NCBI GenBank assembly: GCA_024742835.1
Contig: JANSXS010000032.1
Coordinates: 1 to 37,398, forward strand
Reading direction: 5' to 3'
Length of the DNA: 37,398 nt
Source of the DNA: Paracoccaceae bacterium
GTDB lineage: Bacteria > Pseudomonadota > Alphaproteobacteria > Rhodobacterales > Rhodobacteraceae
In this document: piece by piece, positions 2,735 through 22,147 of the stretch
Numbering within the stretch: position 1 is the first letter of the stretch
Layout of the letters: each line of letters begins with the position of its first letter
Translations under genes and position numbers: made by a program
The notes under the pieces: model-generated
Seen by the model: the letters and a program-made list of their open reading frames with translations, nothing else
Databases searched by the model: none
What the model was told of the DNA's origin: nothing

Positions 2735-2740
2735 CACTAC

Positions 2741-2830
2741 ACCTCGGGGTGTTTTTGCTATCGGCCGGAACTGAGACGCAGCGTGCGAACCCGTTGAACC
2801 TGACCCGGTTAGACCCGGCGTAGGGAAGGT
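2741..2830 (+). ncRNA. TPP riboswitch (THI element) upstream of thiBPQ
   Basis: The conserved aptamer blocks are present in order: TCGGGGTG near the 5' end, CTGAGA at 2771-2776, then ACCCGTTGAACCTGACCCGG, and the closing GTAGGGAAGGT. ACCT (2741-2744) can pair with AGGT (2827-2830) as the base of P1. TPP binding to such elements lowers expression of thiamine synthesis or transport genes. It precedes thiB by 45 bases, so high TPP should shut off thiamine import. The assignment is firm from the consensus. Confidence 0.95.
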
Positions 2831-2839
2831 AATCGGAGC

Positions 2840-2872
2840 TTCCTCCAGCCTTTCCCGCGCCGCCTGGAGGAA
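2840..2872 (+). promoter_or_regulatory. Shine-Dalgarno-sequestering hairpin (expression platform)
   Basis: TTCCTCCAG (2840-2848) is perfectly complementary to CTGGAGGAA (2864-2872), which contains the thiB Shine-Dalgarno GGAGG. The 9-base-pair stem with a 15-base loop would hide the ribosome binding site. The 3' part of the aptamer (GGGAAGG, 2823-2829) could alternatively pair, with one bulge, with CCTTTCCC in the loop (2849-2856). That suggests a translational switch. The hairpin is seen directly; the switching model is inference. Confidence 0.65.
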
Positions 2873-2875
2873 AAG

Positions 2876-3853: not shown

Positions 3854-5385
3854 GCGCCAGACCGGGGTTATGGGCGGCGGCACTTGTCGCTGTCATGATC
3901 CTTGGTGCTTTGACGGCGGTGGTATGGCGAGCGGAACCGGGGGGCGGACTTGGGCCGTCCGACTTGGCGGCGCTGCGGTTTACACTGGTACAAGCGGCGC
4001 TTTCGGCCATTCTGAGCGTCGGGCTGGCGATACCGGTCGCGCGCGCGCTGGCACGGCGGCGCTTTGCCGGGCGGCGTGGCCTGATCGCGGTACTTGGCGC
4101 GCCCTTCATCCTGCCGGTGATCGTGGCCGTTCTGGGTTTGATCGAGGTGTTCGGGCGTGCCGGCTGGGTCAGTCAGGCGCTTGGCGCATTCGGTTTGCCG
4201 CCAGTGCCGATATACGGGTTTCACGGGGTCGTCCTGGCGCATGTGTTCTTCAACCTGCCACTGGCCACGCGCCTGATTCTGCAAGGCTGGCAAGAGGTGC
4301 CGGGCGAGCGGTTCAGGCTGGCCGCACAGCTTGGGGTCGATGGGCCTGCCATGTTCCGGCTGATCGAATTGCCAATGCTGCGCAAGGTGGTGCCCGGTGC
4401 CTTGACGGTGATCTTTGCGATCTGCCTGACCAGTTTTGCCGTGGCCTTGATCCTTGGCGGCGGGCCGCGCGCCACGACGATAGAGCTGGCGATCTATCAG
4501 GCGTTCCGCTTTGATTTCGATCTGGGGCGCGCGGCGCTTCTTTCGGGCATCCAGATCCTGCTGACCACTGCAGCGGCGCTTCTGGCGCTCCGGCTTGGTC
4601 AGGGTGAAAGTTTCGGCGGCGGGTTTGACCGTACTTTGCAAAGATGGGACGGGCGAACCCGGACGGCCGAGGCATTCGATACCGTATGGATACTGCTTGC
4701 TGCCGTCTTTCTGATCCTGCCGCTCCTAGCCATCACTCTTTCGGGGCTGCCGGGCCTGATGGAACTGCACGCGTCGGTCTGGTGGGCGGCTGGAACCTCG
4801 CTTCTGATCGCGGCGCTCAGCACGGCGCTTGTACTGATCATGGCGTTGCCGATGGCCGTGGCCATCGCGCTTGGGCGTGGCAAAGTGGTTGAGGTGGCGG
4901 GTTTTCTCGGGCTTGCCGCTTCTCCGCTGGTGATCGGCACCGGGCTTTTCGTGCTGATCCGCCCTGTCGCGGACCCCACCGCGCTTGCGGTGCCGGTGAC
5001 GGCTTTGGTCAATGCGCTGACTGTGCTGCCCTTCGCGCTGCGCATCCTTGTGCCACGGGTGAGGGACATCATGCAGGGTCAGGCGCAGTTGGCGCTGTCG
5101 CTCGACATCACCGGGTTACGATTTTTACGGCTGATCCTGATGCCGCGCCTGCGTCCACAGATCGGCTTCGCCGCAGGGCTGGCGGCGGCGCTGTCCATCG
5201 GGGATCTGGGGGTGATCACACTGTTCGCGGACCCCGATATCGCCACCTTGCCGTTGCAGATCTACCGGCTGATGGGCGCATACCGGATGGAGTCGGCGGC
5301 GGGGGCGTCGCTGTTGCTGTTGATGCTGTCCTTCGGCACATTCTGGCTATTGGACAAGGGGGGGCATGGTCATGCTGAAGCTTGA
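3829..5385 (+). CDS. thiP: Thiamine ABC transporter, fused permease ThiP
   Basis: ThiP is the inner-membrane channel of the thiamine importer. At 518 residues it is a duplicated permease with about 12 hydrophobic segments. Each half has an EAA-type loop that contacts the ATPase: GERFRLAAQLGVDGPAMFRL in the first half and a QAQLALSLDITGLRFLRLIL segment in the second. The ATG at 3829 lies inside the end of thiB (25-base overlap), implying translational coupling, and the 3' end overlaps thiQ by 20 bases. Length is near the ThiP norm of about 530. Confidence 0.93.
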   Translation: MADRAQPLSARPGLWAAALVAVMILGALTAVVWRAEPGGGLGPSDLAALRFTLVQAALSAILSVGLAIPVARALARRRFAGRRGLIAVLGAPFILPVIVAVLGLIEVFGRAGWVSQALGAFGLPPVPIYGFHGVVLAHVFFNLPLATRLILQGWQEVPGERFRLAAQLGVDGPAMFRLIELPMLRKVVPGALTVIFAICLTSFAVALILGGGPRATTIELAIYQAFRFDFDLGRAALLSGIQILLTTAAALLALRLGQGESFGGGFDRTLQRWDGRTRTAEAFDTVWILLAAVFLILPLLAITLSGLPGLMELHASVWWAAGTSLLIAALSTALVLIMALPMAVAIALGRGKVVEVAGFLGLAASPLVIGTGLFVLIRPVADPTALAVPVTALVNALTVLPFALRILVPRVRDIMQGQAQLALSLDITGLRFLRLILMPRLRPQIGFAAGLAAALSIGDLGVITLFADPDIATLPLQIYRLMGAYRMESAAGASLLLLMLSFGTFWLLDKGGHGHAEA

Positions 5386-6064
5386 GAACGCGATCATCGC
5401 CAACGGCCCCTTCCGGCTGAGTGCGAATATTGAGGTTGCGCCGCGCCGCAAGGTCGCGGTGATCGGCCCGTCGGGCGCGGGCAAATCCACCCTGATCGAG
5501 GGCATTGCGGGCTTTCTGCCATTTGACGGCGGTCATGTGTTTTGGCAAGGGCGCGACATCACGCGGGACGCGCCGGGCAAGAGGCCGGTTGCGATGCTGT
5601 TTCAGGATGGCAACCTTTTTCCGCATCTTAACCTGGCGCAGAATGTCGGGCTTGGGTTGCGGCCTGATTTGCGCCTGTCCAGCCAAGACCACGCAAAGGT
5701 TAAGGCCGCCCTGGCGCGTGTCGGGCTGGATGGCATGGACACGCGCAAGCCCGCCGACCTGTCCGGAGGGCAGCGTAGCCGCGCCGCGCTTGCGCGGGTG
5801 CTGGTCCAGCGCCGGGATATCCTGCTTCTGGATGAACCCTTTGCCGCGCTTGGTCCGGCACTGCGTGCAGAAATGCTTGATCTGGTCGTGGCCCTGACGA
5901 ATGAGACCGGCGCGACACTTCTGATGGTCAGCCACGCGCCCGAAGACGCGCGGCGCATCGCGGATCAGGCCATTCTGGTGGCCGAAGGACGCGCCGAGCC
6001 GCCTGTCGATGCGGTGCAGCTACTCGACAACCCTCCACCGGCACTCCGCGCCTATCTTGGATGA
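5366..6064 (+). CDS. thiQ: Thiamine ABC transporter, ATP-binding protein ThiQ
   Basis: ThiQ hydrolyses ATP to drive thiamine import through ThiP. In the 232 residues, Walker A is GPSGAGKST at 34-42, the signature LSGGQRSRAALARVL starts near 132, Walker B is ILLLDEPFAAL, and the switch His lies in MVSHAPEDA. The Q-loop is in LFQDGNLFPHL. Two in-frame ATGs are close together (5366 and 5372), so the exact start is uncertain by two codons. It is last in the riboswitch-controlled operon, with the convergent asparaginase gene ending 23 bases further on. Confidence 0.93.
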   Translation: MVMLKLENAIIANGPFRLSANIEVAPRRKVAVIGPSGAGKSTLIEGIAGFLPFDGGHVFWQGRDITRDAPGKRPVAMLFQDGNLFPHLNLAQNVGLGLRPDLRLSSQDHAKVKAALARVGLDGMDTRKPADLSGGQRSRAALARVLVQRRDILLLDEPFAALGPALRAEMLDLVVALTNETGATLLMVSHAPEDARRIADQAILVAEGRAEPPVDAVQLLDNPPPALRAYLG

Positions 6065-6087
6065 TCTCATGCCGAGGCGCGCATGAC

Positions 6088-7083
6088 TTAAAGCAGGTCG
6101 GACACCGGCTTCATCACGCCCACCTCTTCCTTGCGCCGGTTCAGGATCGGCGCATTGCAGAAACGCCGCGTAGATGGATGCGAAGGGTCTAGCAGGCCAA
6201 GCCGGATCAGCAGCGCCGCGATGGTGCAATTCGCGCCCCGCGTCGTGCCATCAGCGATCTTGAGCGCGATACCCAGCCCACGTGTGGGCGCGATGCCCAC
6301 GAAATATCCCTCTGCCCCGGTCTTGAGCGCCACCGGCTCTGAACAGGCGCGCATCAATTCGGTACAGGCGCGTTTTTCGCCTGCAACAAGCTCGGGGTGG
6401 GCAATCATCGCCTGCCACAGCCGCACGGCAGCGCTTTGCCGTGCATCCACGCCCTCGACCGCGCCAGCGAACCAGCCCATTGCCCGCGCCATGCCGCGCA
6501 TCGTCGTCAGGAAATTGGGGGCCGCACAGCCGTCGATTCCGTGGCCGGGGCTTGATTCGCCCGTGACACTCTCGAACGCCTCAAGGCAGGCTTTCTGCAC
6601 CGGGTGGTCGATCTCGACATATTCCGGTCCACCCCCCAGATGCTGCGCCAGCGTGAGGAATCCGGCATGTTTGCCGGAACAGCCGTTATGCACCTGACAG
6701 GGCGACTTTTCATTGCAGATCATGTCGTTGAACGCGGCGCGGTCCTGCGGCATCTGCGACCCGCAGCGCAGATCGTCGTCATTCAGCCCCAGATCGGCCA
6801 GCCACGCTGTGACCCGGTCGGTATGAATCGCCCCCGCCTGATGCGACGCACAGGCAAGTGCCAGATGCTCGGACGTCAGGCCATGCGCATCAGCCGCGCC
6901 ACTTTCGACCAGCGGCAGCGCCTGGATCATCTTCGCGGAACTGCGCGGATAGACAACCGCCTCGGGATTGCCCCAGGATTCCACGATATCGCCCTTGGTG
7001 TCGCAGATCACCGCATGACCCAGATGCAGGCTTTCCACGATCGGGCCGCGCCAGATCTCGGTCAGGGGGGCAGGGTTGGTCAT
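6088..7083 (-). CDS. L-asparaginase, Rhizobium etli ReAV-type (AsnA II family)
   Basis: This cytoplasmic enzyme should hydrolyse L-asparagine to aspartate and ammonia. It belongs to the PF06089 family, unrelated to E. coli asparaginases. The 331-residue protein carries S48-S-A-K51, matching the SxxK catalytic pair of R. etli ReAV. C135 and K138 (in CSGKHAG) and C186 (in GIDGCAAPNF) correspond to the Cys-Lys-Cys zinc site of that structure. The start is the ATG at 7083, preceded by GGAGC at good spacing; the frame extends 16 codons further upstream without a better signal. It stands alone, convergent with thiQ. Family membership is secure; substrate activity is inferred. Confidence 0.88.
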   Translation of the reverse strand: MTNPAPLTEIWRGPIVESLHLGHAVICDTKGDIVESWGNPEAVVYPRSSAKMIQALPLVESGAADAHGLTSEHLALACASHQAGAIHTDRVTAWLADLGLNDDDLRCGSQMPQDRAAFNDMICNEKSPCQVHNGCSGKHAGFLTLAQHLGGGPEYVEIDHPVQKACLEAFESVTGESSPGHGIDGCAAPNFLTTMRGMARAMGWFAGAVEGVDARQSAAVRLWQAMIAHPELVAGEKRACTELMRACSEPVALKTGAEGYFVGIAPTRGLGIALKIADGTTRGANCTIAALLIRLGLLDPSHPSTRRFCNAPILNRRKEEVGVMKPVSDLL

Positions 7084-7262
7084 AATCGCTCCTTCGCGGC
7101 GATTCCGCGCGCGGAAAATCGCCAATTCCACCTTTCATGTCTCGCGTGTTTCAGGCTAATGTTGCACTGTCGAGAAGAAAATAGCCGCCACCTAAAAATT
7201 CCGTAAAGGTATGCGTGCGGCTGCAAATTGTTGAGGTTATGGACGGCTTGGAGGCTGTACAA

Positions 7263-7790
7263 ATGGGATCATGGGTAGCACGTGGCATAACTGGCGCGTT
7301 TTTGACAGTGGCAGCAAGTGGCGCCTTCGCACAGGCGGAAAGCGATAACAGGGTGGCCGCAGAAACCGCCTGGAGCGTCTTTGAAGACAGCGATCCAAAG
7401 GAATGCTGGGCGGTGTCTGCACCCACGGAAACGGTGAACACCCGCGATGGCCGCGTGGTGGCGGTTCGGCGTGGGGATATCCAGTTGATGACGTTCTACA
7501 GGCCAAGTGTGGGTGTATCTGGCCAAGTCACGTTCACCGGCGGCTATCCCTTCGCGGGCGGATCGACGGTCAATGTCAGGATTGGTGATCAGGAATTCGA
7601 AATGTTCACCAAAGGCGAATGGGCTTGGTCCGCAAATGATTCTGACGACGTAAAGATAATCGCGGCGATGAAGCGCGGTACCGATGCCGTTCTGACCGCA
7701 CGGTCATCGCGTGGCACCATCACAAAAGACACGTTTTCCCTGCTCGGATATACCGCCGCAGTGGAAGAGGCGGGCCGTCGCTGTAATTGA
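7263..7790 (+). CDS. Secreted protein of the invasion-associated locus B (IalB) family
   Basis: The 175-residue protein begins with a signal peptide (MGSWVARGITGAFLTVAASG, cleavage near AFAQ). The mature part has an IalB-like (PF06776) pattern: an ECWAVSAPT segment with Cys, a basic R-R-G-D beta region, SVNV-like strands with a GDQEFEMF core, and a C-terminal FSLLGYTAAVEEAGRRC with a second Cys that could disulphide-bond. The ATG at 7263 is set by GGAGG eight bases upstream; earlier ATGs in frame lack one. IalB proteins are periplasmic or envelope proteins of unclear function in free-living alphaproteobacteria. Monocistronic by position. Confidence 0.72.
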   Translation: MGSWVARGITGAFLTVAASGAFAQAESDNRVAAETAWSVFEDSDPKECWAVSAPTETVNTRDGRVVAVRRGDIQLMTFYRPSVGVSGQVTFTGGYPFAGGSTVNVRIGDQEFEMFTKGEWAWSANDSDDVKIIAAMKRGTDAVLTARSSRGTITKDTFSLLGYTAAVEEAGRRCN

Positions 7791-7807
7791 AGCGTTTCAT
7801 ATACCGC

Positions 7808-8758
7808 TTACGTGGTGCGAGGCGCCGCCGCTCGACGTAACCTGTCATTGATAGCCAGCCCCAGGCCGGTCTGGGGTATGGGTGCGATCGCGATACCCTC
7901 TGGCGACATGGCATCCAGCGCGTGCAGGCTTGCGAACAAGTTGGCCGCGGCCTCTGTCAGGTTGGCGGATGGTGACAGGTTCATCGTACAGTCCATCGGA
8001 CCAAAGCCCAGAAACGCCTCGCCCGCATATGGCCGTATCACGTCAAGCCGCACCGGCGCTCCCGGCGCGTAATGCGACGCAAGCTGACCAGGAGCGGTGG
8101 GTGCGCCTTGCGTCAATGGTCGGGCCAATGGCTGCGCCAATACAGCCTCGATTGCCTCGGCGGAGAGCCCGCCGGGGCGCAATAAATGTGGTGCGCCGCT
8201 TAGACCCACGATGGTGGATTCGACCCCGACATCGCAAGCACCGCCATCGACAATGGCCTCTATCCTCCCTGAAAGACCCAAGGCAACGTGATCTGCCGTG
8301 GTCGGGCTGATGCGCCCGGACGGGTTGGCCGACGGTGCGGCGACAGGCCCCCCGAACGCCGCCAGCACCGCCCGCGCCACCGGATGGGCAGGTACACGTA
8401 CCGCCAGCGTCGGCAATTCAGCCGTCACAAGCGGCGATAGCCCTGTTCCGGCGCGCAGTGGAAGGACGAGTGTCAGCGGTCCGGGCCAGAAGACCTGCGC
8501 CAGCCGCTCTGCCTCCTTTGACCAAACGACCAGATCACGGGCATCGGCGGCGCTCGCCACATGCACGATCAGCGGGTTGAACCGTGGCCGGCCTTTTGCC
8601 TCGAAAATACGTGCAACGGCATGGTTGTTGTGCGCATCTGCGCCGAGACCATACACCGTTTCTGTCGGAAAAGCGACCAGACCACCATCCGCCAGTATCA
8701 TGGCCGCTGTGGCGTAGCCGTCTTTCGTGGCAAGCAAAAGGTTTGTGGAAGATGACAT
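7808..8758 (-). CDS. Threonylcarbamoyl-AMP synthase, Sua5 type
   Basis: The enzyme makes threonylcarbamoyl-AMP from threonine, bicarbonate and ATP for the t6A modification of ANN-decoding tRNAs. About 316 residues: an N-terminal YrdC domain with FPTETVYGLGADA, the basic KGRPRFNPLIVH nucleotide-binding segment, WPGPLTLVL, RVPAHPVA and SANPSGRISPT. A C-terminal Sua5 domain is introduced by SHYAPGAPV. The two-domain length separates it from short TsaC. The start is ambiguous: ATG at 8758 or GTG at 8770, neither with a strong Shine-Dalgarno. It converges on the IalB-like gene. Confidence 0.92.
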   Translation of the reverse strand: MSSSTNLLLATKDGYATAAMILADGGLVAFPTETVYGLGADAHNNHAVARIFEAKGRPRFNPLIVHVASAADARDLVVWSKEAERLAQVFWPGPLTLVLPLRAGTGLSPLVTAELPTLAVRVPAHPVARAVLAAFGGPVAAPSANPSGRISPTTADHVALGLSGRIEAIVDGGACDVGVESTIVGLSGAPHLLRPGGLSAEAIEAVLAQPLARPLTQGAPTAPGQLASHYAPGAPVRLDVIRPYAGEAFLGFGPMDCTMNLSPSANLTEAAANLFASLHALDAMSPEGIAIAPIPQTGLGLAINDRLRRAAAPRTT

Positions 8759-12430: not shown

Positions 12431-12918
12431 GAGTTTACGGTGTGGTTGGCTGGAAGAACGCAGGCAAGACCGGCCTGATGGAACGGCTTGTCACCGAAAT
12501 CTGCGGACGTGGCATCACCGTATCCACCATCAAGCACGCGCATCACAGCTTTGACGTGGACCATCCCGGCAAGGACAGCCATCGACATCGGCAAGCTGGC
12601 GCGACAGAAGTGTTGCTTTCTTCGCGCAAGCGCTTTGCGCTCATGCACGAAATGAAAGGCGAGGCCGAACCGCCCCTGTCCGAGCTTCTGGGCAAACTGG
12701 CCCCGGTCGACCTGATCCTGATCGAAGGCTACAAGCGCGATACCCATCCCAAGGTCGAGGCGCATCGCGCTGAAACCGGCAATCCCCTTATCGCACCCGA
12801 GGATCAATCGATACGTGCGGTGGCCAGCGACTCGCTGCTCGATCTGGATCGCCCGGTTTTCGATCTCAACGACACCCGTGCGATTGCTGATTTCATATTG
12901 GCTGAGGTCGGGTTGTGA
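12427..12918 (+). CDS. mobB: Molybdopterin-guanine dinucleotide biosynthesis adaptor MobB
   Basis: MobB is a small GTP-binding protein that aids MobA in MGD formation but is not essential. The 163-residue protein has a P-loop GWKNAGKTGLMERL at about 8-21, then STIKHAHHSFDVDHPGKDSH (Switch/Walker B-like region with conserved Lys-His) and DLILIEGYK, all typical. The ATGA overlap with mobA and GTGA overlap with the next gene indicate tight coupling. Confidence 0.94.
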   Translation: MRVYGVVGWKNAGKTGLMERLVTEICGRGITVSTIKHAHHSFDVDHPGKDSHRHRQAGATEVLLSSRKRFALMHEMKGEAEPPLSELLGKLAPVDLILIEGYKRDTHPKVEAHRAETGNPLIAPEDQSIRAVASDSLLDLDRPVFDLNDTRAIADFILAEVGL

Positions 12919-15014
12919 CACGCTTTGACACCATCGCGATCGTGGACTGGTCAAGTGGCAAGGACACGGGCCCGACACCGCGCAAGGACGCGATCTGGCT
13001 GGGTGTGACGCGGGACGGGACCGATGCAGAGCCTCAATACATACGTAACCGCATGGAGGCCGAGGTCCGCCTTGCCGCGCTGATTGAACAAGAGCGCGCT
13101 GCGGGCCGTCGGCTGATGATCGGCTTTGACTTTCCTTTCGGCTTTCCTGACGGGTTCGCCAAGGGGCTGACCGGATCGACCGATCCGTTTGCCGTCTGGC
13201 ACTGGTTGGAAACCCACATCGAGGACAGCGCGCAGGGCAATAACCGGTTCGAGATCGCGGCCCGGATCAACGGGTGTTTTCCCGGCATTGGTCCGTTCTG
13301 GTTCAACGGTCTCAAGCAGGACATCCCCGGCCTGCCCCGCCGCGACACGCGCGAGGGCCACGGCGTGCCGGAAAAGCGCCGCTGCGACATTGCGGCCAAG
13401 GGGGCCTTTGCCTGCTGGCAGATGGGCGGCGCGGGCGCGGTCGGCGGACAGGTGCTGACCGGGCTGCCGGTTCTGCACCGCCTGCGCCAAAGCTTTGCCG
13501 GTCAGGTGGCGGTCTGGCCATTCGAGCCGCCCGCGGCCCCCGTCGTTTTCGCGGAAATCTGGCCCGGTCTGATCAATCCGGCGGTGAAAAAGGCCGAAGC
13601 GGCAGGCGGCATCCGCGACGCCCATCAGGTCCGCTTGCTGGCGCGTGCCCTGTCTGGCCTGTCCGAAACAGAACTGGCCGACATGCTGGATGTCAGCGCA
13701 CCGGAAGAAGGCTGGATCATGGGTCTCGGGCACGAGCCGCGCCTTGTCGAGGCCGCCCAGACCCTGCGCCCGCCGCCCTTGCGCAACGATTGTTTCGCCC
13801 TGCCCGCCGGCGTGGACTGGACCCCGGTGGACACCGCGCTCGACTTTCTGCGCGACCGGTTGCACCCGGTGGTGGCACCAGCGGAACTGCCGCTGGCCGA
13901 CTGCCTTGACCGTGTGCTTGCCGCGCCCGTCACCGCGCACCGCGCCAATCCCCCGCAGCCAAACACGGCGGTCGATGGATATGGCTTTGCCCATGCCAGT
14001 CTTGGCGAGGAGGATCAGGTGCTGCCTTTGGTGGAGGGGCGCGCGGCTGCCGGTGCGCCATATGGGGGGCACGTTCCCAAAGGGTGCGCGATCCGGGTTC
14101 TGACTGGTGCCGCCTTGCCAGAGGGCGTCGATACCGTGATCTTGCAAGAGGACGTCACCGTGGGCGCGGACCGAATTGCCTTTCGCGCAGGCGTCAAGCC
14201 GGGTGCCAACACCCGCCGCGCTGGTGAGGACGTGATGGCAGGCGACACCATCCTGTCGCCGGGCCGTGTTCTGACACCTGCCGATCTTGCCCTTGCCGCA
14301 GCCACGGGGCGCGCCTGTTTGCCCGTGCGCCACCGGCTTCGCGTTGCTGTTCTGTCCACTGGCGACGAATTGCGCGAGGCGGGTCAGGCCACCGGCGAAG
14401 GTCAGATATTCGATGCCAACCGCCCGCTGTTGCTGGGGCTGGCGCGGAAATTTGGCTATGCGCCCGTTGATCTGGGCCGGGTGCCGGATGACCGCGCCGC
14501 CCTTCGCGCGCTTCTTGATCAAGGCGCGGCACGGGCCGACGTGATCCTGACCTCCGGTGGGGCCTCTGCGGGCGACGAAGATCACGTCTCTGCCCTGCTC
14601 AACGAAACCGGTGCTATGGCGCAATGGCGCATCGCCGTCAAACCGGGCCGCCCGCTTGCGCTGGGCCTCTGGAACGGCACACCGGTTTTCGGCCTGCCCG
14701 GAAACCCGGTGGCGGCGATGGTCTGTACGCTGATCTTCGCGCGTCCCGCCATGCGTCTTCTGGCGGGCGAGGCATGGCGCGCGCCCCACGCGCTGACAGT
14801 GCCCGCCGCCTTCCACAAGGCCAAGAAACCGGGGCGCCGTGAATACCTGCGTGCGCGCTTGCGCGATGGACGTGCGGAGGTGTTCAAATCCGAAGGTTCC
14901 GGGCGCATCAGCGGTCTAAGCTGGGCCGAAGGGCTTGTGGAACTGCCTGACGGTGCGGCAACCATCGCTCCGGGCGATCCTGTCACCTACTTGCCGTTCG
15001 ACAGCTTCTATTGA
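12915..15014 (+). CDS. moeA: DUF429-like domain fused to molybdopterin molybdotransferase MoeA
   Basis: The 699-residue protein has two parts. Residues about 320-699 are MoeA, which inserts molybdate into adenylylated molybdopterin: VDGYGF near 353, LSTGDEL, GQIFDANRPLL, TSGGASAGDEDHV near 546-558 and FGLPGNPVAAM near 593. Residues 1 to about 300 start IAIVDWSSGKDTGPTPRKDA and contain MIGFDFPFGFPDGF and VVFAEIWPGL. This arrangement resembles DUF429/RNase H-like proteins (first-strand Asp, then IxxDxPxGxP), though the match is distant. MoeA alone is about 400 residues, so the fusion is real in frame. Translation starts at a GTG overlapping the mobB stop. The role of the N-terminal domain is unknown. 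Confidence 0.88.
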   Translation: MTRFDTIAIVDWSSGKDTGPTPRKDAIWLGVTRDGTDAEPQYIRNRMEAEVRLAALIEQERAAGRRLMIGFDFPFGFPDGFAKGLTGSTDPFAVWHWLETHIEDSAQGNNRFEIAARINGCFPGIGPFWFNGLKQDIPGLPRRDTREGHGVPEKRRCDIAAKGAFACWQMGGAGAVGGQVLTGLPVLHRLRQSFAGQVAVWPFEPPAAPVVFAEIWPGLINPAVKKAEAAGGIRDAHQVRLLARALSGLSETELADMLDVSAPEEGWIMGLGHEPRLVEAAQTLRPPPLRNDCFALPAGVDWTPVDTALDFLRDRLHPVVAPAELPLADCLDRVLAAPVTAHRANPPQPNTAVDGYGFAHASLGEEDQVLPLVEGRAAAGAPYGGHVPKGCAIRVLTGAALPEGVDTVILQEDVTVGADRIAFRAGVKPGANTRRAGEDVMAGDTILSPGRVLTPADLALAAATGRACLPVRHRLRVAVLSTGDELREAGQATGEGQIFDANRPLLLGLARKFGYAPVDLGRVPDDRAALRALLDQGAARADVILTSGGASAGDEDHVSALLNETGAMAQWRIAVKPGRPLALGLWNGTPVFGLPGNPVAAMVCTLIFARPAMRLLAGEAWRAPHALTVPAAFHKAKKPGRREYLRARLRDGRAEVFKSEGSGRISGLSWAEGLVELPDGAATIAPGDPVTYLPFDSFY

Positions 15015-15121: not shown

Positions 15122-15130
15122 ATGGGAAGA

Positions 15131-15249
15131 TCCATAGGGGAGCCTCGCTACAGAGGCTGAGAAATCGATAGGTCCGAAGGCATTATGCCAAAGGCCGGTG
15201 CGATGACCCTTTTAACCTGATCCGGATTATGCCGGCGGAGGAAATGGGA
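15131..15249 (+). ncRNA. TPP riboswitch heading the LuxE/LuxC/ABC/SDR operon
   Basis: Consensus blocks are in order: ATAGGGGAGCC (15134-15144), a P2 stem of GCCTC with GAGGC, CTGAGA just after it, a long P3 insertion, GACCCTTTTAACCTGATCCGG, and the closing GCCGGCGGAGGAAATGG. CCAT (15132-15135) can pair with ATGG (15244-15247) to close P1. The P3 arm is longer than in the first riboswitch, a common variation. The next gene starts 60 bases downstream on the same strand. This is a confident TPP aptamer, so TPP should repress the operon that follows. Confidence 0.93.
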
Positions 15250-15267
15250 TTTGCTTGAGGTGGCATT

Positions 15268-15304
15268 CGCATTCGACGCCTGCACCGGTTCCCAAGAGGA
15301 TGCG
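15268..15304 (+). promoter_or_regulatory. Possible Shine-Dalgarno sequestor of the LuxE-like gene
   Basis: CGCATTC (15268-15274) can pair with GGATGCG (15298-15304), which overlaps the AAGAGGA Shine-Dalgarno (15294-15300) of the LuxE-like gene, using one G-U pair. The stem is only 7 base pairs with a 23-base loop, so it is a weak candidate for the expression platform. Confidence 0.3.
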
Positions 15305-15309
15305 GACGC

Positions 15310-16389
15310 ATGACGCACGAGCCTGTCGTTTTCCGGCTTCTGGAGTTCATCGCGGCGGAGCCGTCTGGTGATGACGCGTTCAACGGCTTGGCATTGACGC
15401 TTTTCGCGTATCAGTTCCAGAACAACGCGCCTTTTGCGAAATTCGCGCGGTCGCGTGGCAAGACGCCCCATACGGTCAGGCATTGGTCGGACATACCGGC
15501 GGTTCCGATCAATGCCTTCAAGACACTTGATCTGACATGCTGCCCGCCACAAAAGGCCGCCGCTATCTTCATGACGAGTGGCACCACCCAAGCCGGACGG
15601 CGCGGCAAAAGCCACCACGCCGCGCTTGATGTCTATGACGCCTCGATGCGGCATAACTTTTCAAGGTGTTTCATGCGGGGCGATGACCGCCTGACCATGG
15701 GCATTCTGTTTCCAGACCCGGCGACGCTGCCGAATTCGTCGCTTGCCCATTATCTTGATCTGGCAATCTGTGGCTTTGGCACCGGGCAAAGCGATTGGCT
15801 CTTGGGTCCGGACGGCATTGACCTGCCCCGTCTGGTGCGCGCGCTGGATCAGGCCGAGACCACGGGTCAGCCCTATGCGCTGCTTGGGGCCAGTTTCAGC
15901 CTTGTTCACGCGATGGATGCCTTGCAGGCAATGGGCCGCCGCTTTTGCCTGCCGCCAGGAAGCCGCATTCTGGACACCGGCGGCTTCAAGGGGCAATCCC
16001 GAGAGCTGGAACCCGATGCGTTTTATGACGCGCTTGAGCATACATTCGGTGTGCCGCGCGCAAGTTGCATCGGCATGTATGGCATGACCGAGCTGTCAAG
16101 CCAGTTCTACGATGACGGCAACGCGGTTTGCCCGTCGGTCAAGTCGGGTCCGCACTGGGTACGCAGTCGGGTCGTGAACCCTGTGACGGGCGCGCGCGTC
16201 CCCAAGGGGGAACGCGGCGTGCTGGTCCATACGGATCTTGCCCATTACAATATCGTCACCTCCATCCTGACAGAGGATGCCGCGATCGAGGTCGATGACG
16301 GGTTTCTGTTGCTTGGTCGTGTGACGGGGGGCGATGCCGTGGGCTGTTCGGTTGCGGTCGATGAATTTCTTCGGGCGGCGGCGGTCTGA
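15310..16389 (+). CDS. LuxE-like acyl-protein synthetase
   Basis: LuxE-family enzymes activate a free carboxylic acid with ATP to an acyl-adenylate and pass the acyl group to their own Cys, then to LuxC. This 359-residue protein has the adenylate-forming loop MTSGTTQAGRRGKSH near 87-101, an HDxx-type mid-region and GMYGMTELSSQFYD near 258. Its C-terminus is DAVGCSVAVDEFLRAAAV. C346 lies 13 residues from the end, matching the acylated Cys364 of Vibrio harveyi LuxE (14 from the end of 378). The ATG follows AAGAGGA. It is first behind the TPP riboswitch, 6 bases before the LuxC-like gene. There is no luciferase or LuxD nearby. The substrate is unknown. Confidence 0.87.
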   Translation: MTHEPVVFRLLEFIAAEPSGDDAFNGLALTLFAYQFQNNAPFAKFARSRGKTPHTVRHWSDIPAVPINAFKTLDLTCCPPQKAAAIFMTSGTTQAGRRGKSHHAALDVYDASMRHNFSRCFMRGDDRLTMGILFPDPATLPNSSLAHYLDLAICGFGTGQSDWLLGPDGIDLPRLVRALDQAETTGQPYALLGASFSLVHAMDALQAMGRRFCLPPGSRILDTGGFKGQSRELEPDAFYDALEHTFGVPRASCIGMYGMTELSSQFYDDGNAVCPSVKSGPHWVRSRVVNPVTGARVPKGERGVLVHTDLAHYNIVTSILTEDAAIEVDDGFLLLGRVTGGDAVGCSVAVDEFLRAAAV

Positions 16390-16395
16390 TCGGGG

Positions 16396-17835
16396 ATGCT
16401 GGAACGCGCCTGTCACCTTCCCGGTCTTGATCCCGACGCGCTTGACTGGCACCGCCTGAGCTTTGCGCGCGGTGATACAGGGCCGGACATTGCGGTGCCT
16501 GTTCTGGGGCCGGGGGATATTGACCGGCTTGCCGCCCATGTACGCGACAACGCGGCTGCGCGTCTGCGCGCCATGCCTGTCGCGCGGATCGTCGAGGCGA
16601 TTGACGCCGTGATTGTACGCCTGCTCGACCGGCAAGATCCCTATCGCAGAAAGATGGAACAGATGCTGCCGGCCGTTACTGGATATGATCCCGAGATGGT
16701 GCGGCTTGGGCTGACACGGTATCTGATGACGTTCCGCAAGCCCGAACTGCTGCGGTTTCTGGCAGAGGATTTTCCCAACCCGGCCATTCTGGATGGGTTT
16801 CAGCCATTGCCCAAAGGCGGCTATGGCAAAGCGTTCGGCCCGCCCCTTCTGGCGCATATATGGGCCGGGAACGTGCCGGGCCTGCCGCTTTGGAGCATGG
16901 TCTGCGGGTTGCTGGTGAAATCCGGCACGATTGGCAAGGTATCCAGCGCGGAACCGCTTTTCGCGGGTTGGTTTGCTCAGGTTCTGGCCGAGGTCGCCCC
17001 GGATCTTGCCGAGTGTCTTGCGGTGGTGTGGTGGCAGGGTGGCGAAAGCGCCCCGGAACAGGCAATGCTGGGGGCGGCCGATCTGACCTTGGCTTATGGC
17101 AGCAACACGTCACTGGCCGCCATTGCGGGCCGTATGCCCCCCGGCAAGCGCCTTTTGCGGTTTGGGCACAAGGTCAGTTTCGCGATGATCGCCGCGGTGG
17201 CCCTTGATCCCGCCAAGGTGGCCGATACCGCCCGCCGCGCCGCGCGGGATATCGCGCGCTATGATCAGCAAGGCTGTTTTGCGCCGCATGTGGTGTTCGT
17301 GGAACGGGGCGGTCGGCTGTGTCCCCGCAGCTTTGCGCGCTATCTGGCCCGCGCGCTTGATGCCTTTGGCCATCGCTTTCCCGCGCGCGCCCTGACCATG
17401 GCCGAGACCGCCAGCTTTGCCGCGTGGTGCCAGCAAGAGGAATTCACCCATGATGCCGAGGTCATGGGCGATGCGCATGGTGGGTGGACCGTGTCTTTCC
17501 ACAACGCTGGTCAGGGATTTGGCCCGTCATGTCTCAATCGGTCTGTCAAGGTGGTGGCGGTCGACGATCTGGCCAATGTGCCGGGCCTTGTTGCCCCTTT
17601 CCGGGCGCTGTTGCAGACCGTGGGCATTGCGGCCTCGCCGGATGAACTGTTCAGGCTCGCCGGGTTGCTTGGGGATGCAGGCGTGACCCGAATCGCGGCA
17701 CTTGGCGACATGACCACACCCGAGGCCGGCTGGCATCATGACGGGCGCTGCAACCTGTCGGATCTTGTTCAGATCACCGAAATAGATGCCCGCGCCCCGC
17801 CCGCCGCTGACAAGCTGGCGTTTTACGATGACTGA
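16396..17835 (+). CDS. LuxC-like acyl-CoA/acyl-protein reductase
   Basis: LuxC-family enzymes (PF05893) take an acyl group onto a Cys and reduce the thioester to an aldehyde with NADPH; they share the aldehyde-dehydrogenase fold. The 479-residue protein has the family GKAFGPPLLAHIWAGNVPGL region, VVWWQGG, and SNTSLAAI. The catalytic segment is YDQQGCFAPHVVFVE, with C294 in the place of C286 of V. harveyi LuxC. Length is normal (about 480). It lies 6 bases after the LuxE-like gene and overlaps the ABC ATPase gene by 8 bases, so the operon continues. A role in light production is unlikely without luxAB. Confidence 0.88.
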   Translation: MLERACHLPGLDPDALDWHRLSFARGDTGPDIAVPVLGPGDIDRLAAHVRDNAAARLRAMPVARIVEAIDAVIVRLLDRQDPYRRKMEQMLPAVTGYDPEMVRLGLTRYLMTFRKPELLRFLAEDFPNPAILDGFQPLPKGGYGKAFGPPLLAHIWAGNVPGLPLWSMVCGLLVKSGTIGKVSSAEPLFAGWFAQVLAEVAPDLAECLAVVWWQGGESAPEQAMLGAADLTLAYGSNTSLAAIAGRMPPGKRLLRFGHKVSFAMIAAVALDPAKVADTARRAARDIARYDQQGCFAPHVVFVERGGRLCPRSFARYLARALDAFGHRFPARALTMAETASFAAWCQQEEFTHDAEVMGDAHGGWTVSFHNAGQGFGPSCLNRSVKVVAVDDLANVPGLVAPFRALLQTVGIAASPDELFRLAGLLGDAGVTRIAALGDMTTPEAGWHHDGRCNLSDLVQITEIDARAPPAADKLAFYDD

Positions 17836-18598
17836 CAGCCCAAGCTTTCTGAGCATCGAGTCTGTCGGCTTTGCCTATCCCGGCGATTGTCCCAGCCTTG
17901 ACGGTGTAAGCCTGTCCCTGAAACGGGGTGCGTTTCACTGCCTTGTCGGGCGCAGCGGTTGCGGCAAGACGACCCTGCTCAAACTGGCTGCGGGTCTTTT
18001 GCGGCCCGGCTCTGGGCGCGTCTGTATCGACGGGCAACCCCTGACCGGCCCGTCGCGTCAGGCCGGGTTTGTGTTCCAGACACCCAGCCTGCTGGAGTGG
18101 CGCACGGTACTGGACAACGTCTTGCTGCCCGTGTCGCTGCACCGGCGGGTCACGTCCCGCGATCGCGTGCGGGCGACTGATCTTTTGGCAGGAATGGGGA
18201 TCGAAGACCACGCACGGCGCTACCCGTGGCAATTGTCCGGCGGACAGCAAAGCCGGGTGGCGCTGGCGCGCGCCCTTGTGACGGACCCGCCCGCGCTGTT
18301 GCTGGATGAACCCTTTGCCGCGCTGGACGCGATCACGCGAGAAGACTTGCAGAACGATCTTTTGCGGCTGACCCGCACGCAGGGCACCACCGTACTTTTC
18401 GTCACGCACGATATTGCAGAGGCGGTGTATCTGGCGGGGCATGTGTCAGTGATGGAAAACGGGCGCATCACCCATGATCTGGCAATAGATTTGCCTGGCA
18501 CGCAAACCGATGACAAACGCTATCACCCCGAATTCACCGCAACCTGTAGCAGGATCAAGGCGGCGCTCGCCCGCTCTGATCGGGTGGGGTCGTCGTGA
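17828..18598 (+). CDS. ABC transporter ATP-binding protein (nitrate/taurine/HMP type)
   Basis: The 256-residue ATPase energises the importer encoded with it. Walker A is GRSGCGKTT at 41-49, then the Q-loop FVFQTPSLLEWRTVLDNVLL, signature LSGGQQSRVALARAL, Walker B LLLDEPFAALD and the switch His in FVTHDIAEAV. The WRTVLDN element after the Q-loop is characteristic of the SsuB/TauB/NrtD/ThiZ group. The ATG at 17828 overlaps the end of the LuxC-like gene by 8 bases. Because of the TPP riboswitch it would be called ThiZ-like; specificity is inferred from context only. Confidence 0.9.
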   Translation: MTDSPSFLSIESVGFAYPGDCPSLDGVSLSLKRGAFHCLVGRSGCGKTTLLKLAAGLLRPGSGRVCIDGQPLTGPSRQAGFVFQTPSLLEWRTVLDNVLLPVSLHRRVTSRDRVRATDLLAGMGIEDHARRYPWQLSGGQQSRVALARALVTDPPALLLDEPFAALDAITREDLQNDLLRLTRTQGTTVLFVTHDIAEAVYLAGHVSVMENGRITHDLAIDLPGTQTDDKRYHPEFTATCSRIKAALARSDRVGSS

Positions 18599-19356
18599 TG
18601 GGCGGGCGCGCGGTTTCGGCCTTGATGTTGCTGGCGATCGTCGCGGTCTGGGAAGGCTGGGTCATGCTTTCAGGGGTGTCCGCAATCCTGCTCCCGGCCC
18701 CGTCACAGATCCTGTCGGTACTGTGGCAGGGCCTGACCGATGGGTTCCTGTGGCCCCATATCCGGATCACCGCGGCCGAAACGCTGTTGGGGTTTTTCCT
18801 GGGAAGCAGCATCGGCTTTGCCTTTGGTGTGCTGCTGGCAGAGGTAGAGCCGCTGCGCCGCCTTCTTTGGCCCTATATTCTGGCAAGTCAGGTGGTGCCC
18901 AAACTGGCACTCGGGCCGATCTTTATCGTCTGGTTCGGGTTCGGCCTGACCTCGATCGTGGTGATCACCGCGCTGATCTGCTTTTTCCCATTGCTTGAAA
19001 ACACGGTCACCGGCCTGCGCGCCGCGCGCCCCGAGCAACGCGACCTGTTTCGGATGCTGGGCGCGACCCGGATGCAAACGCTGTTGCGGCTGAAAATCCC
19101 GGCTGGATTGCCGCTTGTCCTTGCGGGGGTGCGGGTGTCGATGGTGCTGGCACTTGTCGGCGCCGTGGTGGGCGAATTCATCGCCGGAAGCCAGGGTCTG
19201 GGCGCCAGCATCATCGCGGCGCAGGGCATGATGGATACCCCGCTGATGTTCGCCCTTTTCACCCTGATCACGGTGATGGGGATGCTGTTTTACCAACTGA
19301 CCGTTTTGGCTGAACGCTGGCTGCTGCGCAGTCGGCAGAAAGGACATGAAAGATGA
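18598..19356 (+). CDS. ABC transporter permease (nitrate/taurine/HMP type)
   Basis: The 252-residue membrane protein has about six hydrophobic segments. The start LLAIVAVWEGWVMLSGVSAI and ILLPAPSQIL are typical of the SsuC/TauC/ThiX permeases, with the EAA loop ARPEQRDLFRMLGATRMQTL. A GTG at 18595 directly precedes the ATG at 18598; the latter overlaps the last base of the ATPase stop. It forms one importer with its neighbours. ThiX-like is the contextual name, and the transported compound is not known. Confidence 0.9.
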   Translation: MGGRAVSALMLLAIVAVWEGWVMLSGVSAILLPAPSQILSVLWQGLTDGFLWPHIRITAAETLLGFFLGSSIGFAFGVLLAEVEPLRRLLWPYILASQVVPKLALGPIFIVWFGFGLTSIVVITALICFFPLLENTVTGLRAARPEQRDLFRMLGATRMQTLLRLKIPAGLPLVLAGVRVSMVLALVGAVVGEFIAGSQGLGASIIAAQGMMDTPLMFALFTLITVMGMLFYQLTVLAERWLLRSRQKGHER

Positions 19357-20327
19357 TGTTACGCGCCCTTGCCGCCGTGGCGGCTCTTATCCTGAGCGTT
19401 TCGCAGGCCTCCGCACAGGAGCTGGACAAGATCACCATCGCCGGCTGGAGCCAGCCGATCAGCGAAATCACCAATATCCTGGCCGAACCCGACAAGGGGT
19501 TTTTCAAGGCCCAAGGGATCGCGCTTGGCTATGTGCCGGGCACCGGGGGCGGCTCTGCCATCACCAACATGGTTTCGGGCGCCGCAGACGTGGCCTTTAC
19601 CGATCCATCTTCGCTGTATCAGGCGCTTGACCGGGGCGAGGATCTGGTGGGGATCTACAACATTTATCCGCAGAACGTGTTCAACGTCGTGGCCCCCGTG
19701 GATCGCAGCATTAAAACCGCCGCCGATCTCAAGGGCAAGACCATCGGTGTCTACAGCCTGAATAGCGGCACCCGGCAAAACCTGCTGTTTCTTCTGAACG
19801 AGGCGGGCCTGACAGAGCACGACGTGACCATTCAGGTCACCGGCCTGCTTAATTTCGCACCTGTGATACAGGGGCAGGTGGATGCCACCGCCGCCACGGA
19901 TACCGGCCTTTATATCGGAAAGCTCAAGGGGTTGGGCGAGGTCGATGTCATCAATGTCGCCGACAGCCTGAACGTGCCCGCTGATCTGTTCGTGGTCACG
20001 CGGGACTATTACGAGCGGAACAAGCCGCTTTTGCGGCGCTTTCTGCTGGCCTATCGTGACAGCGCGCAATGGATGATCGACCACCCGAAAGAGGCCGCAG
20101 AGATCGCCGTGACCCGTGCGATCAACGGGCGTGACGTGGCTGTCAACCTTGAGATCATCAAGCTGCGCAACCTGTCCGCCCAGTCCGAGACGACCCGCGC
20201 CAAGGGTCTTGGGCATTTCGACCCAGAGATCTTGCAGGCCGGTGCGGATGCGTTTTTCAAGCATGGGCTGATCGCTGCGCCGCTGGATATGAACGCGGTG
20301 ATCCGATCCGACCTGTTGCCGGAGTAA
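19353..20327 (+). CDS. ABC transporter substrate-binding protein (NMT1/ThiY-like)
   Basis: A 324-residue periplasmic protein with a signal peptide (cleavage after ASA, before QELDK). The mature form begins ITIAGWSQPISEITNILAEP, with KGFFKAQGI and the GGGSAITNMVSGAADVAFTD pattern of SsuA/NMT1/THI5-like binding proteins. GKTIGVYSLNSGTRQNL covers the second-lobe entry. It belongs to the fold used by pyrimidine-precursor (ThiY) and sulfonate binders. It overlaps the permease by 4 bases and ends 4 bases before the SDR gene. The acidic or cationic nature of its ligand cannot be told from the sequence. Confidence 0.88.
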   Translation: MMLRALAAVAALILSVSQASAQELDKITIAGWSQPISEITNILAEPDKGFFKAQGIALGYVPGTGGGSAITNMVSGAADVAFTDPSSLYQALDRGEDLVGIYNIYPQNVFNVVAPVDRSIKTAADLKGKTIGVYSLNSGTRQNLLFLLNEAGLTEHDVTIQVTGLLNFAPVIQGQVDATAATDTGLYIGKLKGLGEVDVINVADSLNVPADLFVVTRDYYERNKPLLRRFLLAYRDSAQWMIDHPKEAAEIAVTRAINGRDVAVNLEIIKLRNLSAQSETTRAKGLGHFDPEILQAGADAFFKHGLIAAPLDMNAVIRSDLLPE

Positions 20328-20331
20328 GCCA

Positions 20332-21099
20332 ATGGATTTTGCTGGCAAAACCGTTCTGATCACAGGGGCCGGTCGCGGCATCGGCGCAGCCATCGCCAAA
20401 GGCTTTGCCACCGAGGGGGCCTCGGTTGCGGTCAATTACCTGCAAGACGCCACATCCGCCTCGGCCACGGTCGACGCCTGCACCGTAGCCGGTGGCACAG
20501 CCCTGGCGATGCAGGCCGATGTCACGGATGCAGGGGACGCGGCGCGGCTGGTGGCCGCCACGCAGGACGCTTTCGGCAAGATCGACGTGCTGGTTCATAA
20601 CGCCTTTGCGCCTTATGTCTTCTCGCCGGAGAAACGCGCGCTGTTCTGGGAAACGGACTGGGCCGCGTTTCAGGCCCAGATCGACGGGTCCGTCAAGGCG
20701 GCCCATGGCATGGCGCGGGCCGTTCTTCCTGACATGCTGGCACGCGCCGAGGGTTGTATCATCAACATCGCCACGAATTTGGTCGAACGGCCCGTCGTGC
20801 CCTACCACGATTACACCACGGCCAAATCCGCGCTTGTCGGCTTTAGCCGCAATCTGGCGGTAGAACTGGGGCCCTTGGGCATCCGGGTCAATCTTGTGTG
20901 TCCCGGTCTGGTCTATCCCACGGCGGCCAGCCGGGCGGTGAAAGAAGATCTCAAGGACGCGCTGATCGCACAGACACCGCTGCGCCGGATCGCCACGCCG
21001 GCGGATGTTGCGGGGCCGGTGTTGTTCCTGGCGTCACCCTGGGCGGGGTTCATGACGGGGCAGACCCTGTATGTCGATGGCGGCTTCGTGATGCGCTGA
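20332..21099 (+). CDS. Short-chain dehydrogenase/reductase (FabG-like, BKR_2 type)
   Basis: The 255-residue NAD(P)-dependent oxidoreductase has the Rossmann motif TGAGRGIG at 11-18 and the catalytic Y-T-T-A-K. The usual catalytic Ser position, 13 before the Tyr, is Thr (in ATNLVERPVVPYHDYTTAK), as in the BKR_2 subgroup. It then has VNLVCPGLV and a C-terminal ATPADVAGPVLFLASPWAGF and DGGFVMR. It follows the binding protein by 4 bases as the last gene of the riboswitch operon. In this setting it could reduce the aldehyde made by the LuxC-like enzyme to an alcohol. The substrate is inference; annotation as 3-oxoacyl-ACP reductase would be misleading. Confidence 0.88.
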   Translation: MDFAGKTVLITGAGRGIGAAIAKGFATEGASVAVNYLQDATSASATVDACTVAGGTALAMQADVTDAGDAARLVAATQDAFGKIDVLVHNAFAPYVFSPEKRALFWETDWAAFQAQIDGSVKAAHGMARAVLPDMLARAEGCIINIATNLVERPVVPYHDYTTAKSALVGFSRNLAVELGPLGIRVNLVCPGLVYPTAASRAVKEDLKDALIAQTPLRRIATPADVAGPVLFLASPWAGFMTGQTLYVDGGFVMR

Positions 21100-21217
21100 C
21101 CCAAAGCGTTTCACCTTTTCCCCAAGACATCTGCGAAAGACCGTGAGTCAGGTTTTTTGCGAAAAGTGGACGAGCCAACCCTCGCGCCCTATCCTCTGTA
21201 CAAAAAGGGGAGCGCCA

Positions 21218-22147
21218 ATGCGGTGGGTTGTTTACTTTTGCCTCATCCTGTCGCTTGCCGCGACGAGTTCGACCGTCCGGGCGGCAACGCAAAAGGACAG
21301 TTACCTCGAAATGGCGCGGCAAGGCTGGAGCTATGAGTTGCGCACGACGATGATCGGGCGCGACCTTTCGATTCCGGTTCACATCAACGGGCGGGATCTG
21401 GCCGGGGCGTCGATCTGCATGGTAGGCGAGCGGCCCAATGCCGGATCTTTGGACGTGATCAACGCCTTCCGCAAGCTGGTCGCACATATCTATGGCAAGC
21501 CGGTGCCAATGCGATTTGCCGGACACAGTGCGGAGGATTGCGGGCAGGGGCGTATGATCGTGCTGAGGCTTTATTCAGGTGCGCCACCCAACAGCGCGCT
21601 GTCGGATGATCTCAATTGGATGAACCGCACCTATCAGCTTGGCTTGCCCAAGGACAGGTTTTATGCCGCCAGTTCCCCCGCGATGGCGCAAACTTTTTTT
21701 GGCCGACGAGGGCAAGGCACGCATATTCTGGTTCAGCAAACCGCCGTTCCCGGCAGTGACCGTCTCGAGGATATCTTTTTCCGGTCGATTCTTGTCGAAG
21801 AGCTCTATCAATCCTTCACCTTTGGCATGGATATTCTGCAATTCGACAAGCAGGGCCCGTTTTACTCCAAGCTTCAGGAGGTGCCCCTGAACCTGAACCG
21901 GCTGCCATGGGGATCTCGGGCGTTCAAGAAGGCGCTTTTGGGGACGAACCCGCCGGGTCTTTGTGAATTCGACGTTCTGATGATGCACGCGGTGGCCAAG
22001 GCCCCGGTGGACGAGACGACAATGCCTGTTTTCATTGATTTCATCGACGACAATTTCGACGACCTCGTTGCAGCGACGCGCGCGACCCTCGCAGATGACA
22101 CATATCAGATCATCCTCGATACCGATTGTCGGCCCGCCCTCGACTAA
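21218..22147 (+). CDS. Secreted DUF2927-like protein
   Basis: The 309-residue protein has a signal peptide (MRWVVYFCLILSLAATSSTV, cleavage near RAATQ). It contains a central FFRSILVEELYQSFTFGMDI segment, similar to the EEL-Q helix of DUF2927 proteins, and a C-terminal WGSRAFKKALLGTNPPGLCEF. Two Cys in the N-terminal half (in ASICMVG and AEDCGQG) could be bridged. The ATG at 21218 follows GGGGAG; the frame is open upstream but without a signal. Function is unknown. It stands between the riboswitch operon and the MoxR operon, and the family match is moderate. Confidence 0.55.
   Translation: MRWVVYFCLILSLAATSSTVRAATQKDSYLEMARQGWSYELRTTMIGRDLSIPVHINGRDLAGASICMVGERPNAGSLDVINAFRKLVAHIYGKPVPMRFAGHSAEDCGQGRMIVLRLYSGAPPNSALSDDLNWMNRTYQLGLPKDRFYAASSPAMAQTFFGRRGQGTHILVQQTAVPGSDRLEDIFFRSILVEELYQSFTFGMDILQFDKQGPFYSKLQEVPLNLNRLPWGSRAFKKALLGTNPPGLCEFDVLMMHAVAKAPVDETTMPVFIDFIDDNFDDLVAATRATLADDTYQIILDTDCRPALD

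Follow-up and report, generated by a model that had tools for sequence, protein, structure and literature searches.

The 37,398-nucleotide stretch of Paracoccaceae DNA analyzed here (the window) carries an operon that is headed by a thiamine pyrophosphate (TPP) riboswitch aptamer and encodes relatives of LuxE and LuxC, an ATP-binding cassette (ABC) importer, and a short-chain dehydrogenase/reductase (SDR). We favor, with moderate confidence, the reading that this TPP-controlled operon reduces an imported acid derived from thiamine (vitamin B1), most likely 4-amino-2-methylpyrimidine-5-carboxylate, by way of the aldehyde to hydroxymethylpyrimidine (HMP), which ThiD and ThiE are predicted to join with thiazole that the cell makes itself. 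The module is real and conserved, and it is probably a new branch of B1 salvage. We also lean, by slightly more than an even judgment, toward a general picture in which a LuxE/LuxC-derived heteroaryl carboxylate reductase made of two proteins works with an SDR to recover HMP from a fully oxidized pyrimidine waste acid, and has spread on plasmids across Proteobacteria and Bacillota, always under a TPP riboswitch.

A TPP-headed luxE-luxC-SDR module

The aptamer (RF00059) occupies 15126..15260 of the forward strand and matches the full Rfam model (1-105) at 68.5 bits in cmscan (E 1.4e-11), above the gathering score of 54.3 bits. Its end lies 49 nucleotides before the start of the luxE-like gene, the first of six forward-strand genes (15310..21099) separated by gaps of 6, -8, -4, -4, and 4 bases, where the value of -8 assumes that the ATPase starts at an inner ATG at 17828. 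The luxE-like gene (15310..16389) encodes a predicted acyl- or aryl-acid adenylating ligase of 359 amino acids (PF04443, 33.3 bits; Pfam cut-off 24.9), and the luxC-like gene (16396..17835) a predicted thioester reductase of 479 amino acids (PF05893, 302.6 bits). These are followed by an ABC transporter ATPase (17828..18598; ABC_tran PF00005, 112 bits), whose reading frame is open from 17786 and whose inner ATG overlaps the luxC stop; a permease (18595..19356; BPD_transp_1 PF00528, 92.9 bits); a periplasmic binding protein of the NMT1/THI5 family (19353..20327; PF09084, 148.5 bits against a gathering score of 20.5), with a pyrimidine-type B1 precursor as its predicted ligand; and an SDR (20332..21099; adh_short_C2 PF13561, 205 bits), predicted to carry out the step from aldehyde to alcohol. 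Rfam and Pfam thus bear out the original prediction, made from the letters of the sequence, of a TPP aptamer and six tightly packed genes on one strand, save that it had started the aptamer at 15131, five bases off. It had also described the operon as lacking luxAB and luxD, and Pfam and NCBIfam scans matched no luciferase (LuxAB) or LuxD family among the six genes, the rest of the genome not having been searched for them. A scan for promoters and terminators was uninformative, as was a computation of strand folding (z -0.56).

How widespread is this arrangement? Within the genus, two of 84 genomes (the window's own and G598) have an ortholog of the LuxE-like protein, as do 7 of 385 genomes of the class with the window's genome included, and 27 of 72,556 plasmid records: 13 from Pantoea, nine from Azospirillum, and one each from Priestia, Pseudomonas, Niallia, Lactiplantibacillus, and Levilactobacillus. 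A family-level scan gave matches at E <= 0.001 in 4 of 198 genomes, the only full-length one being the window's own. The resulting 35 loci, from eight alphaproteobacterial genomes and the 27 plasmid records, span at least ten genera of Proteobacteria and Gram-positive bacteria (Bacillota), although many plasmid records nearly duplicate others of the same species (Pantoea, Azospirillum) and the independent number is nearer a dozen lineages. A TPP aptamer heads every locus, and every locus has LuxC beside LuxE. Among the plasmid aptamers, 26 of 27 lie above the gathering score, and the one in Priestia lies below it at 49.0 bits (E 1.8e-8). An SDR is present at all 28 loci where it would be visible (all eight of the genomes, and 20 of the 27 plasmid records), a count that leaves out seven Azospirillum records consisting of short unannotated stretches. 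The recurring core is luxE-luxC-SDR, and because the aptamer-luxE-luxC arrangement recurs at every other locus examined, it is more than chance. The original prediction looked to other genomes for LuxE-LuxC pairs behind TPP riboswitches, and this is what the 35 loci hold. Its wider proposal, that a thiamine-related acid is imported and reduced under TPP control, is strongly backed by the conserved core; the enzymology stays predicted.

In a LuxE tree of 15 rows, Niallia and L. plantarum form a group separate from the other rows, and Priestia is placed among the proteobacterial ones. In Lactiplantibacillus plantarum and Levilactobacillus brevis, small plasmids (L020 and L021) carry NCS2-luxE-luxC-SDR with identical protein accessions, which suggests that plasmids were exchanged recently; the tree and the accessions common to these two lactobacillar genera fit horizontal spread of the module. 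The copy on a Pseudomonas silvicola plasmid (L023, 9055-12326), in which luxE and luxC are split over several open reading frames (ORFs) behind a 63.8-bit aptamer, is either decaying or affected by sequencing errors. A search for viral carriers gave 31 stretches that match a pattern, none of them confirmed, and a search of E. coli with the Pantoea module gave no match.

The LuxE/LuxC pair together with the SDR is a predicted carboxylate-to-alcohol pathway. The LuxC-like protein aligns with LuxC of PDB 7xc6 (chain A; E 8.1e-23), its YDQQGCF pairing with YDQQACF at the same cysteine position. This cysteine, C294 of the YDQxxC motif, is invariant in a 15-row alignment, and so, also in 15 rows, are Y161 and K165 of the SDR's YxxxK motif. 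A catalytic-type cysteine of the LuxE-like protein, C346, is invariant among the aligned orthologs. It lies seven residues past the last pair (339 to 357) aligned with LuxE of 7xc6, where C364 of that protein, presumably its acyl carrier, would fall. The nearest relatives of the LuxE-like structure model are PaaK-type aromatic-acid ligases. The LuxC proteins of the 27 module plasmid records score 318-545 bits and those of eight other plasmid records at most 93 bits; because of this sharp gap, the module LuxC is a distinct subfamily.

Could these proteins be ordinary fatty-acid reductases placed under TPP control, for example to supply an aldehyde or alcohol for membranes or signaling? The two families are indeed named for fatty-acid reduction. 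However, the LuxE-like protein reaches only 48.7 bits against the bioluminescence LuxE model NF052244 (equivalog cut-off 550) and the LuxC-like protein 99.3 bits against the corresponding LuxC model NF052251 (equivalog cut-off 750), far below these long-chain thresholds. The presence of a TPP aptamer at all 35 loci, in two phyla and on many plasmids, speaks against such a role too, as do the heterocycle-type transporters that accompany the core in most of its forms, and we consider it very improbable.

Proposed salvage route and thiamine gene content

TPP control in every lineage suggests that the cell needs these genes at low TPP, and the module would therefore serve salvage rather than breakdown. 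From the genes, the aptamer, their conservation, the catalytic-type residues, and the gene content of the carriers, we infer the following route. Low TPP would lead to expression of the operon through the predicted response of the aptamer to its ligand, and the NMT1/THI5-type importer would take up the acid. LuxE would adenylate the acid with ATP and pass the acyl group to its own C346; LuxC would accept the acyl group on C294 and convert the thioester to the aldehyde; and the SDR would turn the aldehyde into HMP, making the reduction to HMP an ATP- and NADPH-driven process. ThiD would phosphorylate HMP, and ThiE would couple the product to thiazole supplied by ThiO, ThiS, ThiG, and ThiF. The proposed substrate is a natural product of thiamine metabolism: the title of a 1964 paper by Neal and Pearson (reference 144 in PMC7780320) gives 4-amino-2-methylpyrimidine-5-carboxylate as a thiamine metabolite in rat urine. 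Moreover, PMC10470507 includes roseobacters that grow on HMP or 4-amino-5-aminomethyl-2-methylpyrimidine (AmMP) but not on its N-formyl derivative (FAMP).

Which half of thiamine would the carriers need? Our gene-content counts cover the eight alphaproteobacterial carrier genomes. The window's genome (3.03 Mb, 99.89% complete) has, behind a third TPP aptamer, a TPP-controlled thiD-thiO-thiS-thiG-thiE-thiF operon without thiC (G000:C28, stretch L053, 3858-8189), in which ThiO and ThiF are best matches below curated cut-offs and ThiS was called by eye, and the genome has neither a thiC nor a thiM match. In G605, of the same genus, a thiC match precedes thiG, with about 1.3 kb between them. ThiC is matched in none of the eight carriers, nor is the ThiM family (hydroxyethylthiazole (HET) kinase, PF02110); full-length ThiG is present in six, and a ThiE-family gene in all eight. 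Since ThiG and ThiE are kept and ThiC and ThiM are missing in six of the eight, HMP is the compound to be acquired. The original prediction had suggested a test for loss of thiC or thiG. Loss of thiG is not the rule, and thiC, although missing in all eight carriers, is also lacking in 257 of the 385 class genomes.

The same counts bear on 4-methylthiazole-5-acetic acid, one of three candidate substrates in the original prediction, which would yield HET. Reduction of a carboxylate to an alcohol suits its chemistry, but the ThiM family needed for HET use is the very one unmatched in all eight carriers. Six of these have their own ThiG, and Niallia possesses a separate thiazole-type importer, ThiW, described below. 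We give this substrate very little credence; among the three candidates the pyrimidine acid fits best.

Plasmids may supply thiazole genes as well. Seven further Azospirillum plasmid records, distinct from those with the lux module, contain ThiG; their accession numbers neighbor those of the lux plasmids, and both sets probably belong to the same strains. It is plausible that plasmids also provide a thiazole source next to the Pantoea module: Pantoea LPP-1 plasmids carry thiOSGF (PMC3505739; P. dispersa is not named in the part of this source drawn on here). ThiC matches occur in 379 plasmid records (60 of the 379 listed).

Transporters and the choice of substrate

The transporter of the module varies: it is a ThiXYZ-like ABC importer, an NCS2 nucleobase permease, or none adjacent. 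Homologs of the window's ABC importer lie inside the module in five of the eight genomes (not in G406, G496, or G573), in Priestia, and in two fully read Azospirillum records. Two fully read Pantoea loci have no importer homolog in the module; at one of them, a peptide-type ABC system precedes the aptamer. Directly upstream of luxE, Niallia and both lactobacilli carry an NCS2 permease (PF00860; 243 and 256 bits for the two proteins scanned), and the nearest model of these Gram-positive permeases is that of xanthine permease, with scores below the model's cut-off. The Niallia megaplasmid run consists of two tandem TPP aptamers followed by ThiW (TIGR02359, 175 bits), NCS2, luxE, luxC, and SDR. 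Table 1 of PMC6593275 assigns HET transport to ThiW and HMP transport to ThiXYZ; with ThiW and NCS2 in one TPP-headed run, the pyrimidine half is thus left to the NCS2/Lux part. By eye, a terminator-like hairpin and a T-run follow the first of the tandem aptamers (stretch L019, 6697-6993 and 7023-7559).

The binding protein of the window matches by sequence first 3qsl, of unknown function (E 5.9e-10), then the FAMP-binding 3ix1 (E 4.4e-7) and SsuA (E 6.6e-7). The top Foldseek matches of its structure model are 4nmy, a thiamin-bound protein of C. difficile, and 3ix1, the FAMP-binding ThiY. Gene content fixes the half of the product and leaves the exact acid free, and transporters of the ThiY and NCS2 types suggest merely a small heterocycle. 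The module could therefore make HMP from another pyrimidine acid of B1 breakdown, with the logic of the operon unchanged. We know of no other natural acid that stands one two-step reduction away from HMP, and we think this alternative unlikely.

Several findings weigh against 4-amino-2-methylpyrimidine-5-carboxylate as the imported substrate and HMP as the product. The ABC importer lies outside the constant core of the module, and its binding protein yields a model of only moderate quality (pLDDT 72). This protein also lies near the sulfonate-binding SsuA, which comes first by VIA-align Z (27.0 vs 24.9 and 24.7) in comparisons that cover listed families, so that unlisted families may match too. 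Full-length TenA in three of the eight carriers, the window's genome (G000), G598, and G406, indicates another route of pyrimidine salvage there; G496 and G573 have partial matches of at most 37.3 bits, and G277, G391, and G301 have none. ThiC is found in only 128 of the 385 genomes of the class and lacking in 257. Its absence from all seven class carriers gives a Fisher p of 0.10, and its absence from all eight carriers a p of 0.08 against the 36 genus non-carriers, 12 of which have it (two partially); for ThiM, above the cut-off in 8 of these 36 and matched in none of the eight carriers, p is 0.32. Because 257 of 385 class genomes are without thiC, its depletion in carriers is not statistically compelling, and we rejected thiC loss as statistical proof. 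The gene-content argument consequently rests on the type of gap rather than on its rarity.

The main exception to the HMP gap, and a further point against this substrate, is the pair G277 and G391, whose ThiG-family matches are only partial (23-25 bits; Pfam cut-off 23) and not ThiG-like in length. As these genomes have no full ThiG, ThiM, or full-length Thi4, HMP alone would not complete the pathway there unless a thiazole source was missed. Thi4 as a hidden source was considered and rejected: many short matches turn up in all eight genomes, none above 34 bits and some exceeding the Pfam cut-off of 26.2, and the family also matches in 14 of 14 controls, so that we read these matches as noise from the FAD motif. 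Each of the two genomes keeps one ThiE-family gene. In both, the other TPP aptamer stands before an ABC importer of the branched-chain-amino-acid type (L067, about 4364-8720; L068, 3256-7548, minus strand), assigned through Peripla_BP_6 and BPD_transp_2 in L068 (G391) and through ORF resemblance in L067, and possibly another B1-related importer.

Might the module yield thiamine itself instead, starting from thiamine acetic acid or from a related or phosphorylated form of it? The two carriers that lack both full-length thiG and thiM would then be accounted for, and the top Foldseek match of the binding protein, 4nmy, does bind thiamin. Thiamine uptake also exists in the window's genome: some 9 kb before the operon, a second TPP aptamer (2735-2843) heads thiBPQ genes for a thiamine importer (2735-6064), by which the cell probably takes up intact thiamine as well. 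However, a thiamine product leaves unexplained the thiD-O-S-G-E-F genes of the thiC-less window genome, the ThiG of six of eight carriers, and the ThiW beside the Niallia module. Moreover, NCS2 nucleobase permeases are an unlikely path for a thiazolium compound. We therefore regard thiamine acetic acid as rather unlikely and retain the pyrimidine acid as the preferred substrate.

Genomic surroundings and relation to known systems

Upstream of the operon, at 12915-15014, a 699-amino-acid MoeA within an fdhD-mobA-mobB-moeA cluster carries an N-terminal extension some 280 residues long, which resembles, below the cut-off, the second part of the MobB/unknown-domain fusion model PRK14495. Forty-three bases after the SDR, a gene encoding 334 amino acids (21143-22147) has no Pfam or NCBIfam match, and R. 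litoreus has an opposite-strand gene at its place. Near the left end of the contig lies a transposase fragment with an rve integrase core and HTH_21 (566-1093, minus strand).

Known salvage of B1 precursors starts from HMP, FAMP or AmMP, HET, or thiamine. What is new here is apparently the use of enzymes of known families in TPP-riboswitch-controlled salvage of a vitamin precursor, a process that is itself known. If our reading is correct, the pool of oxidized B1 waste would be opened to auxotrophs, and a supposedly dead-end excretion product would return to the B1 economy. This could be how some lactobacilli, and some bacteria of marine and plant-associated habitats, manage although they require HMP. 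It would also be the first role in vitamin salvage of the LuxE/LuxC thioester relay, for which we know of no earlier use of this kind. Like the original prediction, which knew of no such system, we found no description of LuxE/LuxC-type acid reduction in thiamine salvage, in a search that lay outside most subscription journals. The combination of TPP riboswitch and acyl-CoA reductase gave no literature match, and LuxE, LuxC, thiamin, and riboswitch together gave one cyanobacterial transcriptome paper. The word "reductase" is absent from the main text of a TPP regulon survey (PMC3766115).

How does the module compare with systems already described? The window's genome has the gene set of the "Ah" variant of HMP auxotrophs, which is ThiG, ThiD, and ThiE without ThiC (Table 1 of PMC6593275), and the pattern of the six carriers with full-length ThiG agrees with this variant; for this variant the source gives the HMP transporters CytX, ThiXYZ, and YkoEDC and, in the part drawn on here, no acid-reducing enzymes. 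In ThiM/ThiW thiazole salvage, as in our module, one half of B1 is recovered under TPP regulation, and ThiW even stands within the Niallia operon, but ThiM is matched in none of the eight carriers and the half predicted here is the pyrimidine. Pyrimidine salvage by ThiXYZ and TenA, which converts FAMP and AmMP to HMP, has a TPP-controlled NMT1/THI5-type ABC importer in HMP-requiring genomes, and the fold of our binding protein resembles that of ThiY (3ix1), as it does that of SsuA. Unlike that system, the operon has no TenA or YlmB, and the predicted chemistry is carboxylate reduction in place of deformylation and deamination. From the lux operon of bioluminescence, in which luxA, luxB, and luxD stand with luxC and luxE, the six genes searched differ by having none of the first three. 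The LuxC-LuxE fatty acid reductase complex of bioluminescent bacteria (7xc6) shares both protein families and the YDQxxC cysteine of LuxC with the operon, which differs from it in its TPP control, its added SDR, its heterocycle-type transporters, and its lack of neighboring luxD and luxAB.

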